Of a stretch of DNA of 64,000 nucleotides, positions 8,953-56,769 are shown piece after piece. How positions within the stretch are numbered: the first letter of the stretch is position 1; every line of letters starts with the position of its first letter. The stretch comes from Usitatibacter palustris (lineage in GTDB: Bacteria > Pseudomonadota > Gammaproteobacteria > Burkholderiales > Usitatibacteraceae), in contig NZ_CP053073.1 in the NCBI RefSeq assembly GCF_013003985.1, positions 1-64,000 on the forward strand, in the 5' to 3' direction. The notes beneath the pieces were generated by a model. It did no database searches. It was not told the origin of the DNA and saw nothing but the letters and a program-made list of their open reading frames with translations. The position numbers and the translations under genes are program-made.

Positions 8953-10194
8953 TTACGGCGTCTGTACCACGTCGCCAACGTAGATCGGCTTGGTGGACCG
9001 CATCACCATCGCGTACGACATCTTTTCGAATACACGGAAGACGAACACGAGGCCGTTGCGCTCGTCGGGAATCTTCAGGACCGTGCCCTCGAGCACTGCG
9101 CCGCCCTTCTTGGATTCACCGGACGCTTCCTTCGCATCGGCCTTTTCTTCGGCCTTCGTTTCCATGTTCTCGTACCACCAGCTGCGCAAGCCGCCCAGCA
9201 GATCGGTCTGCCAGGTATCGATTACCTGGCCGCTGCCGGTGATCACGTCGCCGCGGCGGAAGCTCGCGAGCACATGGCCCACTTCGATGCCGTCGCGCGA
9301 GCCACGATTGAGCGTCACGATCTGGTATTGACCGAGCTCCGACACGCCGCCATCGACCGACATGATCGAGCCCTTGATGGGCTTGTCCGGGGCGCGGGGG
9401 ATGTAGCTCGGGAAGCTCGTCTCGCGCGCCGGCAGCAGGCGGTCGCCGCGATTGATTTCTTCGCGAGCCTTCGTGATTTCGAGCGTCGTGGGGTCGCCGT
9501 AGCGGCGCACGCGGGCATCGCCCACATAGCGTGCTTCGTAGCCGAGCAGCTCGCCGGTATCCGGATCCGTCAGTTCCCGCCCACGGCGGAAAACCTGCCA
9601 GTTGACGCCGTCGGTCGAGGCAATGCGGTCGGCGTAGGCGATGCTGCCGGCCCCGACGAGGATGCGGCTCTCTTCGGTGGCGACGATCGCGGGCGCGGTG
9701 TCCAGGCCATTGGCTTCGACCACCATCGGCTGTGTGAGGAAGGGGCCGATCGCGGCGCCCGGGATGCTGGGCACGGCGACGCCGAGCGCGGCGATGCGGG
9801 TGCGGGGTTCGAGGCGGACGACGTTACCGGCGGCCTGCTCGGCAGTCCCGCCCGACGCGCCACCTTCGCCACCGCTGCCGCCGGAAACGATCGAAAGCTC
9901 CGGATAGGCTCCGGAACGGTCCAGCTTGATGATGTCGCCCGGGTAGATGAGGTGCGGGTTCTTGATCTGCTCCCGGTTCATCTGCCAAAGCAGGGGCCAC
10001 TTGAACGGTTCCTTCAGGAACCGGCCCGAAATGTGCCAAAGCGTGTCGCCCTTGACCACGGTGTACTGGGTCGGAGCGTCGGTTTGGAGGTCTGCGTTCG
10101 TCGCTTTGGTTGCGGGAACGGGGCCATTGGCCAGGAGTCCCGTCGGAACCAAACTGATGCCTGCGACGACTAAAGCTATAATTCTCTTGCGCAT
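8953..10194 (-). CDS. Exported LysM-domain protein
   Basis: A 413-aa protein with a signal peptide (MRKRIIALVVAGISLVPTG..., cleavage near LLANG) and one LysM module at about residues 43-90 (YTVVKGDTLWHISGRFLKEP ... IYPGDIIKL), which binds peptidoglycan. The rest resembles the uncharacterised region of betaproteobacterial LysM proteins encoded beside dprA. It has no visible hydrolase motif, so it is more likely a scaffold than a wall-cutting enzyme. The start is taken at the ATG at 10194, because an upstream ATG at 10296 would put 34 residues before a clear signal peptide. It is divergent from def. Confidence 0.85.
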   Translation of the reverse strand: MRKRIIALVVAGISLVPTGLLANGPVPATKATNADLQTDAPTQYTVVKGDTLWHISGRFLKEPFKWPLLWQMNREQIKNPHLIYPGDIIKLDRSGAYPELSIVSGGSGGEGGASGGTAEQAAGNVVRLEPRTRIAALGVAVPSIPGAAIGPFLTQPMVVEANGLDTAPAIVATEESRILVGAGSIAYADRIASTDGVNWQVFRRGRELTDPDTGELLGYEARYVGDARVRRYGDPTTLEITKAREEINRGDRLLPARETSFPSYIPRAPDKPIKGSIMSVDGGVSELGQYQIVTLNRGSRDGIEVGHVLASFRRGDVITGSGQVIDTWQTDLLGGLRSWWYENMETKAEEKADAKEASGESKKGGAVLEGTVLKIPDERNGLVFVFRVFEKMSYAMVMRSTKPIYVGDVVQTP

Positions 10195-10309
10195 GGCGGC
10201 TCTCACTTGTGGATATGGAGCACGGGACCCATATTCGAAAAGGGTTACGCCCCCCTTTTCATGTAGTGCGGTAGATTCTGCACATAATCCATTCAATTAG
10301 CAAGCTTTT
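10195..10309. promoter_or_regulatory. Divergent intergenic region between the LysM gene and def
   Basis: A 115-base AT-richer spacer that must carry the promoters of both divergent genes. A CATAAT hexamer at 10283-10288 is a candidate -10 for def, but no convincing -35 lies at the right distance. No clear promoter was recognised for the LysM gene. Confidence 0.35.
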
Positions 10310-10813
10310 ATGGCCATTCTCGAGATCCTCCAGTACCCGGACCCACGGCTGCATGCAGCCGCCCAGCGCGTCGACAAGATCGATGCGCAGACGCGCCAGC
10401 TCATCGACGACATGGCGGAGACGATGTATGCCGCGCCGGGGATCGGGCTCGCTGCCACGCAAGTGGACGTTCACAAACAGATCATCGTGATCGACGTGAG
10501 CGAGGACAAAAGCGACCTGCGCGTCTTCATCAACCCGGAGATCCAGCGCCGTGAAGGCGTTTCGACGGGACAGGAAGGCTGCTTGTCGGTCCCCGGCATT
10601 TATGACAACGTCGAACGGGCCGACAGCGTCACGGTCACGGCGCTCGACCGCAGCGGCGCCCGATTCACCCTCAATGCTTCCGGGTTGCTCGCCGCATGCA
10701 TCCAGCATGAGATGGACCACCTGCACGGGCGCGTCTTCGTCGAATACCTCTCGGAACTGAAGCAGAACCGCATTCGCGCGAAGCTGAAGAAACGCCAGCG
10801 CAAGGCCGCCTAG
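10310..10813 (+). CDS. def: Peptide deformylase
   Basis: Removes the formyl group from the initiator methionine of nascent proteins in the cytoplasm. All three family motifs are present: GIGLAATQ (motif 1), EGCLSVPG (motif 2, metal-binding Cys near residue 91) and QHEMDHLHG (motif 3, metal-binding histidines and catalytic Glu near 133-137). The length of 167 aa is typical. It is paired with fmt, 17 bases downstream, so the enzymes that add and remove the formyl group are co-transcribed. Confidence 0.98.
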
Positions 10814-10830
10814 AAAGGCGCGCCGCTTTC

Positions 10831-11763
10831 TTGCGCGTCGTCTTCGCCGGCACCCCCGCATTCGCCGCGCGGGCCCTGGAGGCCCTCCTCGCCGCCGGGC
10901 ATGAAATCCCGCTCGTCCTGACCCAGCCGGATCGACCGGCAGGGCGAGGCCTGCGGCTTGCCGCCAGCCCCGTGTCCGACTGGGCTTCCCAACGCGGGAT
11001 CGCCCTGCACAAGCCAGTGAACCTTCGAACGGAAGAGGCCCGCGAGCCAATTCGCAAGGCGAAGCCCGATGTCGTTGTGGTCGCGGCCTATGGGCTGATC
11101 CTCCCCCAGGCAGTGCTCGATATCCCGTCGGGCGGGTGCCTCAACATTCATGCCTCCCTGCTTCCCCGATGGCGGGGCGCCGCACCGATCCAGCGGGCCC
11201 TCCTCGCCGGCGACACGCGCACGGGCGTCGGCATCATGAGGATGGAGGCCGGCCTCGATACGGGCCCGGTGCTCCTCGAAAAGGTCATCGACATCGAGCC
11301 ACGCGAAACCAGTGGATCGTTGACTGAGCGCCTTGCCGAACTAGGTGCCAATGCCATTGTGCAAGCGCTCGCTAACCTCAGTCGGCTGGCGCCGCGAACT
11401 CAAGACGAGGCCACAGCCACCTATGCCTCGAAGATCACGAAGGGCGAAGCGAGGATCAACTGGAGCCAGTCGGCCGAGATAATCGACCGGCAGATTCGGG
11501 CGTACAACCCGTTTCCTGGCGCGGAGACCGTTCAAGGGGGGCTGCCCCTCAAGATATGGACGGCCAGCCCCGTGGAGGGCATGGGAAGCCCGGGAACGGT
11601 GCTGGCGGCCTCACCGGTCGAACTCAGGGTGGCCTGCGGGTCGGGAGCGCTCGCGATCGAGCAGGTACAGCGCGCCGGGTCGCGCCGGATGGCCGTTTCC
11701 GAGTACCTTCGAGGCACGCCGTTGGAGCCCGGATCCCGCTTGGGGGATGTGGAGAAACCCTAG
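10831..11763 (+). CDS. fmt: Methionyl-tRNA formyltransferase
   Basis: Formylates initiator Met-tRNA from 10-formyl-tetrahydrofolate. The N-terminal catalytic domain begins RVVFAGTPAFAARALEALL and contains the folate-binding and catalytic region HASLLPRWRGAAPIQRA plus GIMRMEAGLDTGPVL. A C-terminal tRNA-binding domain follows, and 310 aa is the usual size. The start appears to be a TTG at 10831: no ATG or GTG lies where the conserved beta strand requires it, and the preceding stop of def limits alternatives. rsmB (sun), which often follows fmt in related bacteria, is not present here. Confidence 0.96.
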   Translation: MRVVFAGTPAFAARALEALLAAGHEIPLVLTQPDRPAGRGLRLAASPVSDWASQRGIALHKPVNLRTEEAREPIRKAKPDVVVVAAYGLILPQAVLDIPSGGCLNIHASLLPRWRGAAPIQRALLAGDTRTGVGIMRMEAGLDTGPVLLEKVIDIEPRETSGSLTERLAELGANAIVQALANLSRLAPRTQDEATATYASKITKGEARINWSQSAEIIDRQIRAYNPFPGAETVQGGLPLKIWTASPVEGMGSPGTVLAASPVELRVACGSGALAIEQVQRAGSRRMAVSEYLRGTPLEPGSRLGDVEKP

Positions 11764-54861: not shown

Positions 54862-55758
54862 ATGCAACGGCGCGAATTTCTCCTTTCGACGATGGCCCTG
54901 GCGGCGGCATCGAACGCGGGCGCCCAGGCTGGCCCCACGACCCGGCCCATTCCCTCGACGGGCGAGCGCCTCCCCGCGGTCGGACTGGGCACCTGGCTTA
55001 CCTTCGACGTGGGCTCCGGCGAAAGCAACGCGCGTGGCGAAGTGCTGAAGGCCTTCTTCGCGGCCGGCGGCCACCTGGTCGATTCCTCGCCCATGTACGG
55101 CGCCTCCGAAGAGGTCATCGGTGCGCAGTACGCTCGCATCGGCAAGCCCGCGGCCATGTTCTCGGCGACCAAGGTGTGGACCGTGGGCGGGCTCGCCGGC
55201 CGGCGCCAGATGGAAAAATCGCGCGGCCTCTGGAACCTGCCGCGCTTCGACCTCATGCAGGTCCACAACTATCTCGACTGGGAAACGCACCTGCCCACGC
55301 TGAAGGCCATGAAGGCCGAGGGCAAGCTGCGCTACGTGGGCGTGACCACCTCGCACGGCCGCCGCCACGACCTCGCCGAGGAAATCATGAAGAAGGAGAA
55401 GCTCGATTTCTTCCAGGTGACGTATTCACTCGCCGACCCCGAAGCCGACAAGCGCTTGCTGCCGCTCGCGGCCGATCGAGGTACCGCGGTGATCATCAAC
55501 CGCCCGTTCGACGGCGGCGCGCTCTTCAGCCGCGTGAAGGGCAAGGCGCTTCCCGGATGGGCCGCGGAGATCGGCTGCAAGAGCTGGGCCGAGGTGTTCC
55601 TGAAGTGGATCGTGTCGCACCCGGCCGTGACCTGCGCGATTCCCGCGACGACCCGCGTGGATCATGTGCGCGAAAACATGGGGGCCCTCGCGGGCCCCCT
55701 TCCTGATGCGGCGATGCGGCGGCGCATTTCCGCCGACTTCCATGCACTGTCATCCTGA
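54862..55758 (+). CDS. Tat-exported aldo/keto reductase family protein
   Basis: A 298-aa protein with a twin-arginine signal (MQRREFLLSTMALAAAS) and an AKR TIM barrel: AVGLGTWLTFD, LVDSSPMYGASEEVIG (catalytic Asp and Tyr), and ATKVW at the Lys position. The usual HxxD catalytic His appears in LMQVHNYLDWE. Export of an NADPH-type enzyme is unusual, because NADPH is not available in the periplasm, so the cofactor question is open. The last three codons and stop lie inside the left arm of a dispersed palindromic repeat. Confidence 0.85.
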   Translation: MQRREFLLSTMALAAASNAGAQAGPTTRPIPSTGERLPAVGLGTWLTFDVGSGESNARGEVLKAFFAAGGHLVDSSPMYGASEEVIGAQYARIGKPAAMFSATKVWTVGGLAGRRQMEKSRGLWNLPRFDLMQVHNYLDWETHLPTLKAMKAEGKLRYVGVTTSHGRRHDLAEEIMKKEKLDFFQVTYSLADPEADKRLLPLAADRGTAVIINRPFDGGALFSRVKGKALPGWAAEIGCKSWAEVFLKWIVSHPAVTCAIPATTRVDHVRENMGALAGPLPDAAMRRRISADFHALSS

Positions 55759-55840
55759 GGAGCAGCGCGACCGAAGGACCTGCTTGAATCAGTTAACCGA
55801 CTAAAGCAGGTCCTTCGTCGCTTCGCTCCTCAGGATGACA
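55748..55840. repeat. Dispersed palindromic repeat between convergent genes
   Basis: Two nearly perfect inverted arms, 55748-55785 (starts TGTCATCCTGAGG, ends GACCTGCTT) and 55804-55840 (starts AAGCAGGTCC, ends CAGGATGACA), around an 18-base loop. It separates the aldo/keto reductase from the convergent P460 gene, so it may work as a two-way terminator. A single-arm copy lies at 56725-56762. Arms of this type are scattered in many bacterial genomes. Confidence 0.8.
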
Positions 55841-55844
55841 GTTC

Positions 55845-56642
55845 CTACTTGACTTCCACCTTGCCTTTCATGTTCGGGTGCAGCCCGCAGATGTAGTCGT
55901 AGACGCCGGGCGTCTCGAACTTCATCGTCTGGCTCTGGCCCTTGAGGATCACCGGCGTGCGCAAGCCATTCGCGCTCGTGACCGTCACCTGGTGAGGTGA
56001 ATCGTCGGTATTGGTCCACGTGACGTAGGTGTTGGGCTTCACGTCGAGCTTCTCGGGGCCGAAGAGGAAGTCGGAGATCGCGACGATGTCCGGTCCCTTC
56101 TTGGCCACCGGCTTCGCGCCGGGTGCGGTGCCCGAGAATTTCGCGAGCGAGATCACGAAGTCCTGCCCGGCATGCGGCTTGTGGCAGACGAAGCAGCTCT
56201 TCAGGTTCGCCTTGTCGTTCACTTTCTTCTCGGCGTTGAAGACCTGGTATTCCCAGTCGCCGTTGCGGATGTCCTCGGGATACTCGACGCCAAAGCCCGT
56301 GCGCTTTTCCATCACGGTGTACGCGACGAGGTCACCCTTCTTGAAGCGTCCCTTGTCGTCCTTGACCGGAACGCCCTTGTCATCGACGACGGCCTTGTAC
56401 TGCACGAGCGTGAGCACGGTGCCCGAGGGGATGGGCTTGCCCGCCTTGACCGCGTCGACCGCGGCCTTGGTGGACCACAGCTCGCGGTACTGCTTGATGT
56501 CGTAGCGGTCGACGACGCCGTAAAGCACGCCCTCCGCCCACTTTTCGGGGTACTGCACTTTGTTGGGCCCGGGGTTCTGGGCGAGGACAGGCAGCGAACA
56601 GGCGGCGATTGCGGCTAGCAGGGCGCGGCTGGCGGTTTTCAT
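55845..56642 (-). CDS. Exported cytochrome P460-cupredoxin fusion protein
   Basis: A 265-aa protein with a signal peptide (MKTASRALLAAIAACSLPVLA). Residues about 30-170 form a cytochrome P460 domain with GDWEYQVF and one c-haem site CFVCH (Cys150, Cys153, His154). Residues about 180-265 form a small blue-copper domain with the four type 1 copper ligands His217, Cys252, His255 and Met258 (DDSPHQV and YICGLHPNMKG). P460 enzymes of ammonia and methane oxidisers convert hydroxylamine or detoxify NO. Here the copper domain could take the electrons directly. Substrate is inferred, not shown. The start at 56642 fits the signal peptide. Confidence 0.85.
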   Translation of the reverse strand: MKTASRALLAAIAACSLPVLAQNPGPNKVQYPEKWAEGVLYGVVDRYDIKQYRELWSTKAAVDAVKAGKPIPSGTVLTLVQYKAVVDDKGVPVKDDKGRFKKGDLVAYTVMEKRTGFGVEYPEDIRNGDWEYQVFNAEKKVNDKANLKSCFVCHKPHAGQDFVISLAKFSGTAPGAKPVAKKGPDIVAISDFLFGPEKLDVKPNTYVTWTNTDDSPHQVTVTSANGLRTPVILKGQSQTMKFETPGVYDYICGLHPNMKGKVEVK

Positions 56643-56724
56643 TGGATCCTCCCGGATGGCGGGGCGGCGAAAAGCCGCCCCGAAGCACTGTACGTGAACA
56701 GTGCCCAACCGGATTCCTTCCAAC

Positions 56725-56762
56725 AGCAGGTCCTTCGGTCGCTATGCTCCCTCAGGATGACA
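56725..56762. repeat. Single-arm copy of the dispersed repeat
   Basis: A sequence nearly identical to the right arm of the palindrome at 55804-55840 (starts AGCAGGTCCTTCG, ends CTCAGGATGACA). It sits between the end of thiC and the start of the P460 gene. No matching opposite arm is seen next to it, so it is a half copy. Confidence 0.75.
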
Positions 56763-56769
56763 AGTCGGG

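Follow-up and report, generated by a model that had tools for sequence, protein, structure and literature searches.

A cytochrome c'-beta-class haem domain fused to a predicted type 1 copper domain in Usitatibacter palustris, within a haem-domain branch that has several candidate redox partners

The stretch analysed here, called the window, comprises 64,000 nucleotides of the Usitatibacter palustris genome (NZ_CP053073.1, positions 1 to 64,000). At 55845-56642 its minus strand, to which all features of the gene given below belong, carries a single open reading frame of 265 codons plus stop (266 codons) without internal stop, running from an ATG at 56642 to a stop at 55845-55847 and encoding, as supported by Pfam, a 265-residue fusion protein (P0001). 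Five bases before the ATG, a GGAGG sequence resembling a ribosome-binding site was read by eye (56648-56652). Residues 1-21 (56580-56642) have, also by eye, the look of a signal peptide with a basic start, a hydrophobic core and a VLA end, and residues 1-24 display pLDDT values below 50 in the AlphaFold2 model. The flanking genes (thiC, an aldo/keto reductase gene and a BacA-type gene) are uninformative on function. The intergenic regions contain repeats: a long, near-perfect inverted repeat lies between the fusion gene and the aldo/keto reductase gene (55746-55842; RNA fold energy -70 kcal/mol) and a related half of it between the fusion gene and thiC (56717-56763). For a related repeat pattern with a different spacer, the rest of the genome contains two exact matches and the control none.

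The model of the protein shows two folded domains (mean pLDDT 82, pTM 0.68). The first, residues 25-170 (56133-56570), is a c-haem domain of the cytochrome c'-beta/P460 fold, assigned from PF16694 (residues 43-164, E 9.8e-18, above the curated cut-off), from the solved structure 7s5o and from fold alignment. It contains the haem-attachment motif CFVCH at residues 150-154 (56181-56195). A linker rich in Gly, Ala, Pro and Lys, delimited from sequence and model (residues 171-186, 56085-56132), leads to a cupredoxin domain, residues 187-265 (55848-56084), which matches PF13473 (187-262, E 1.6e-10) and PF00127 (189-265, E 2.2e-9), both above the curated cut-offs. Within this fold the His, Cys, His and Met ligands expected of a type 1 copper centre form a predicted site: His217 (55992-55994), Cys252 (55887-55889), His255 (55878-55880) and the axial Met258 (55869-55871), each present in 40 of 40 fusions. 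To judge from these residues, the fusion protein would be loaded with both haem and copper. The first-pass annotation had described one exported polypeptide in which a c-haem P460 domain (CFVCH) is followed by a type 1 copper domain that retains its complete ligand set, and its coordinates, strand, frame and residues are confirmed here, the ligands moreover proving constant throughout the fusions.

A misassembly of two genes had been named as what would undo that description. Misassembly or chance fusion is unlikely, given the one-contig assembly of this genome (3.96 Mb), the recurrence of the fusion in frame and the similar third-position GC of the haem and copper halves (0.89 and 0.90). A scan of 84,980 species genomes took as query four aligned fusions, namely the window protein and three from its family. 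It gave 72 loci: 34 further in-frame fusions in other genomes, one fusion with a broken frame (L056) and 37 single-domain or partial loci. As only two peptide patterns were used, the number of fusions is an under-count. Fusion holders are mostly Bradyrhizobium, cultivated species included, together with Betaproteobacteria, one Xanthobacteraceae MAG and Rokubacteria MAGs. The broken-frame copy, from Rokubacteria, spans two open frames (L056, 7001-7810), which points to a broken gene or to a sequencing error. Viral contigs gave no match; among plasmids 72 records matched, without any of them reaching 80% coverage of the query.

In the order to which Usitatibacter belongs, PF16694 is present in 53 of 300 genomes. 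Reading 12 stretches with long frames there revealed five more copper fusions (L127, L128, L129, L134 and L135), three long frames with weak PF16694 matches being left out among the 300 (G249, G064 and G149 contig 16). The initial alignment set comprises 35 fusions, window included, and 33 single-domain proteins, after removal of L056 for its broken frame and of L071, L092, L095 and L096, which were shorter than 100 aa as extracted; no frame was obtained for L099 and L117. The residue counts given here add the five fusions of the order and drop the singles L074 and L079; they thus cover 40 fusions, 31 single-domain relatives and eight cytochrome c fusions.

The best solved relative of the haem domain is 7s5o (phmmer E 1.2e-13; profile E 3.1e-43), the N. 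europaea cytochrome c'-beta (NeCP-beta), which is tabulated as not oxidising hydroxylamine (PMC11928373). Fold alignment of model residues 25-176 (VIA-align) gave Z 15.8 with 7s5o and 14.0 with the T. thermophilus cytochrome c'-beta; the P460 chains reached 13.1 (9hrk, the best of them) and 12.9 (6hiu). A haem-lysine cross-link is what defines the cytochromes P460, those that oxidise hydroxylamine additionally carry a distal carboxylate, and the cross-link-deficient P460s characterised to date are inactive (PMC11928373). The window protein has neither residue. In the phmmer alignment, Arg46, Met79 and Ala109 of 7s5o correspond to Arg46 (56505-56507), Leu79 (56406-56408) and Thr109 (56316-56318) of the window protein, by a hand count in which one offset fits all three. 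Leu79 stands at the position of the cross-linking lysine of true P460s (Lys70 in NeP460, Lys78 in McP460), and the profile alignment puts McP460 Lys78 (6hiu) on the same column. Thr109 occupies the position that holds the catalytic distal carboxylate (Glu96/Asp102) in the P460s active on hydroxylamine.

These features extend to the whole set of 40 fusions. Position 79 is Leu in 37 and Met in three and never Lys; position 109 is Thr in 34, Ala in five and Asn in one and never Asp or Glu. Position 46, equivalent to the distal capping arginine of NeCP-beta, is Arg in all 40, and Cys150, Cys153 and His154 are likewise conserved in every one. Lys83 was considered as an alternative cross-linker and is unlikely to be one: it lies four residues off, and the position reads Lys in 33, Arg in one and Gln in one of 35 fusions. 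The sequence and the model thus place the haem domain, almost certainly, in the cytochrome c'-beta class, that is, in the P460-c'-beta superfamily without the cross-link. With lysine and carboxylate absent and a cytochrome c'-beta as nearest relative, no 460-nm spectrum is to be expected. The view of this domain as a P460 passing electrons from hydroxylamine is contradicted by Leu79 and Thr109 and by the lack of Lys or Asp/Glu at these positions in the 40 fusions.

NeCP-beta resembles the window protein in its haem fold, in Arg46, in a residue other than Lys at 79 and in a non-carboxylate at 109, and differs in being a 169-residue chain without copper domain, with Met79 and Ala109 in place of Leu79 and Thr109. 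The P460s (NeP460 2je3, McP460 6hiu/9hrk and NsP460 6amg) share PF16694, the fold and a CxxCH haem, whereas they possess the haem-lysine cross-link and the solved ones have no copper domain. One further position deserves mention: His157 (56172-56174), three residues C-terminal of the haem-ligand histidine, is found in 39 of 40 copper fusions versus one of 31 single-domain relatives, although the latter form one clade and are therefore not independent. It may mark the contact side.

As for the copper domain, fold alignment of the model (residues 183-265) gave Z 13.4 with 5fc9, the Nitrosopumilus purple cupredoxin, and about 13.1 with amicyanins, a tie. The cupredoxin fold is thus shared, at Z of about 13, by the window protein, 5fc9 and amicyanin (1aac and relatives), and the short ligand loop C-x2-H-x2-M of the window domain is, in the alignments, of the amicyanin type. 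Unlike the window domain, both are free-standing carriers, the partner of amicyanin being methylamine dehydrogenase (title of 1mda).

Copper is not the only carrier joined to this kind of haem domain. Eight relatives, three in the genus of the window organism (L006-L008) and five elsewhere in its order (L130-L133 and L138), have an N-terminal cytochrome c instead of the copper domain; Pfam was run on L006 alone (Cytochrom_C, Cytochrome_CBB3 and PF16694) and the other seven were judged by CxxCH and sequence. Their position 79 is Ala in four, Leu in two and Val in two, never Lys, and their position 46 is Arg in two, Phe in five and Met in one. We built a tree of 67 hand-picked haem domains, with 20 copper fusions (15 of the 35 and the five extra), 15 of the 33 singles, all eight cytochrome c fusions, 16 classical sequences and eight others; it is midpoint-rooted and carries a long-branch warning for L137, L136, L009 and L122. 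Copper fusions and the single-domain proteins of the family scan form one starred clade (99/97), inside which the 15 single-domain rows make a starred group (100/99), most simply explained if the copper domain was lost once. A separate starred clade (99/96) unites the eight cytochrome c fusions. The classical Lys-type and Phe-type sequences stand apart, but the split isolating them is weak (86/71). On these sequences, carriers of two kinds appear to have been acquired in the haem lineage.

A third candidate partner is encoded next to some of the single-domain genes. In 10 of the 11 Bacillota loci (L081-L090 and L094) a DUF4405 frame lies 30-87 bases downstream, and the eleventh, L090, keeps a 36-residue DUF4405 trace; DUF4405 copies are interrupted in L087 (two frames) and L090. 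The plasmid loci that were opened (R. etli, S. meliloti and Peribacillus muralis; L141-L143) all three show a single-domain gene directly before a DUF4405 gene, the rhizobial plasmid proteins being absent from the 67-row tree. In S. meliloti GR4 (L142, 6158-7483) a guanylate/adenylate cyclase gene (PF00211) comes after this pair, a possible hint at signalling. Beyond the Bacillota and the opened plasmid loci, DUF4405 does not hold up as a partner common to the single-domain relatives: neither tblastn nor a profile of 12 DUF4405 proteins detected it near the remaining 26 single-domain or partial loci, of which some lie on short contigs, and none was found near 35 fusion loci (L056 included) or the window, the flanks never exceeding 7 kb and often being shorter. 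His33, His47, His111 and His125 of DUF4405 are conserved in 13 of the 13 stretches that extend to residue 125. Their spacing is reminiscent of membrane haem b cytochromes, and one of three proteins has a weak PF01292 match (E 0.0013, below the cut-off); this membrane protein may bear haem b. DUF4405 is a candidate electron partner of the single-domain P460-fold protein, and we infer that cupredoxin, cytochrome c and DUF4405 replace one another in this role.

Genome context says less. No neighbour is constant across the beta, alpha and Rokubacteria fusion loci in the 15 loci compared, and no pathway for the fusion is thus supported. Matches between clades are scattered and seem, by eye, to belong to large paralogous families (response regulators, ABC/rotary ATPases, a glycosyltransferase, extracytoplasmic receptors). 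Alpha loci do share neighbours because they are close kin; one such neighbour is a response-regulator gene, located immediately upstream in L032 and L055 and matched in about 20 alpha rows. PF02461 and PF13447 (AMO/HAO) have no match in the whole window genome, nor in any of 14 control genomes, so that this negative is weak evidence for a lack of ammonia-oxidation genes. The window organism does have a cytochrome cd1 nitrite reductase (cytochrome c and d1 domains), adjoined by COX1-family and CoxB-like genes, and its genome gave no NirK match. A d1-haem protein (E < 1e-99; counts by eye, in which NirN and NirF may be included) occurs in two of six copper-fused and two of seven cytochrome-fused genomes versus 78 of 300 genomes of the order, and NirK exceeds the cut-off in none of the 13 fused genomes versus 37 of 300. 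Nitrite reductases are thus not enriched in fused genomes, on samples of six and seven that are lower bounds. At L139 (G000:C1:1016500-1036400), nirS lies at 9805-11631 and the opposite strand carries COX1-family, CoxB-like and SCO1-like genes and an FtrB-like regulator, the FtrB-like and CoxB-like matches being below the cut-offs; this may represent an unusual kind of NO reductase and not an oxidase.

How could such a protein work? It would lie in the periplasm and hold two redox centres, a c-haem of the c'-beta class, with the CxxCH histidine as ligand and an arginine on its distal side, and, on a short linker, an amicyanin-like type 1 copper that would serve as the tethered electron partner of the haem. 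The ferric haem would react with hydrogen peroxide to a ferryl state; Cu(I) would reduce the ferryl, and the copper would be recharged by the periplasmic electron-transfer chain. The parts of this proposal differ in weight. That the copper domain acts as tethered redox partner is probable, by analogy, and the 40 of 40 complete sets of copper ligands, the cytochrome c-fused clade and the DUF4405 neighbours, the last confined to the Bacillota and the opened plasmid loci, all argue for a redox partner. The idea of donor and acceptor fused in one chain, put forward in the first-pass annotation, is retained as a probable tethered redox pair but loses hydroxylamine as the electron source; electrons may run from haem to copper, as put forward there, or in the opposite direction. 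Tethering has precedents in copper nitrite reductases, some of which end in a cupredoxin and others in a cytochrome c (PMC7201279; see also PMC13324648). TsNiR (6hbe, cupredoxin), RpNiR and PhNiR (cytochrome c) likewise join a catalytic core to a carrier, whereas their core is a copper enzyme instead of a haem domain, and the carrier is C-terminal in RpNiR and PhNiR versus N-terminal in the cytochrome c/c'-beta fusions.

Hydrogen peroxide as the main substrate is a tentative choice, its chemistry being carried over from NeCP-beta. With H2O2 this protein forms a ferryl; it also acts as a guaiacol peroxidase, and Arg46 is presumed to take part (PMC11928373). This argument does not extend to the cytochrome c fusions, as only two of eight have Arg46. 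Type 1 copper has a potential of about +0.26-0.3 V. With a haem at about -205 mV, transfer from Cu(I) to Fe(III) would be uphill and from Cu(I) to ferryl downhill; the same potentials also allow haem-to-copper flow, which counts against peroxide. Two further points weigh on the same side: the peroxidase activity of NeCP-beta is modest and uses an artificial donor, and the window genome already encodes a separate CCP/MauG-type protein (PF03150, 113.5 bits, over the cut-off). Moreover, classical peroxidases have a distal histidine, and none was identified in the window haem domain. The haem value used here is that of McCP-beta, the tabulation giving none for NeCP-beta (PMC11928373). A detoxification role, suggested earlier on, stays plausible for peroxide or NO and is given up for hydroxylamine.

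Among other substrates NO comes first. The ferrous haem could bind NO as scavenger, carrier or NO reductase-like protein, while the copper keeps the haem redox-poised or supplies electrons. Gas binding is the general function proposed for cytochromes c'-beta (PMC11928373), and the rhizobial relative at L142, two genes upstream of the adenylate/guanylate cyclase gene, could hint at signalling. Against this, nitrite reductases show no enrichment. Furthermore, copper at about +0.3 V is ill suited to reducing a haem near -0.2 V. We consider such a role unlikely.

NO could, in another scheme, be oxidised: bound to ferric haem it would be hydrated to nitrite, and the tethered Cu(II) would take up the electron and pass it to the respiratory chain. 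Transfer from haem to copper is downhill, c'-beta haems bind NO (PMC11928373), the window organism, with its cytochrome cd1 nitrite reductase, probably produces NO, and 5fc9, among the top structural matches of the copper domain, belongs to the Nitrosopumilus purple cupredoxins, of which Nmar_1307 is reported to oxidise NO to nitrite (PMC6790972). Yet the 5fc9 match is one of fold only, the missing enrichment of nitrite reductases applies here too, and a quinone-linked donor would be unsuitable where DUF4405 adjoins (Bacillota, rhizobial plasmids), which leaves this scheme quite unlikely. That the fusion is a self-contained NO oxidoreductase, serving soil bacteria other than nitrifiers as a physiological NO oxidase, is a long shot. 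A milder reading, that one c'-beta branch would be a modular redox family with interchangeable partners, is better supported.

The fusion as a P460 hydroxylamine oxidase joined to its own electron acceptor, the original reading, is very improbable. The Pfam family is shared, the McP460 fold does match (9hrk and 6hiu, with the Z values given above) and electrons would run downhill from haem to copper, but cross-linking lysine and catalytic carboxylate are missing from the window protein and all 40 fusions, P460s deficient in the cross-link are so far inactive (PMC11928373), and Lys83, four residues away, is not invariant. A chlorite-dismutase-like or other oxyanion activity via the distal arginine, with the copper domain as an accessory, is barely credible: chlorite dismutation requires no electron carrier, even if the arginine over the NeCP-beta haem does recall chlorite dismutase (PMC11928373).

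Peroxide reduction by a tethered haem-copper pair is the reading we prefer, and the partners themselves bear on a wider question. The published picture of cytochromes c'-beta is one of single-domain gas binders, with the role of the Arg-capped ones yet to be determined (PMC11928373). The words 'fusion', 'copper' and 'two-domain' are absent from the main text of that article, and the literature covered, from which most subscription papers are missing, yielded no description of a P460/c'-beta plus cupredoxin architecture; automatic domain annotation presumably already lists the domain pair. That related haem domains carry different redox partners is an argument for electron-transfer chemistry in this branch. 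Since both centres lie on a single polypeptide, direction and substrate would be directly readable, the copper site reporting electron flow near 600 nm, and the cultivated Bradyrhizobium members make a knock-out feasible.
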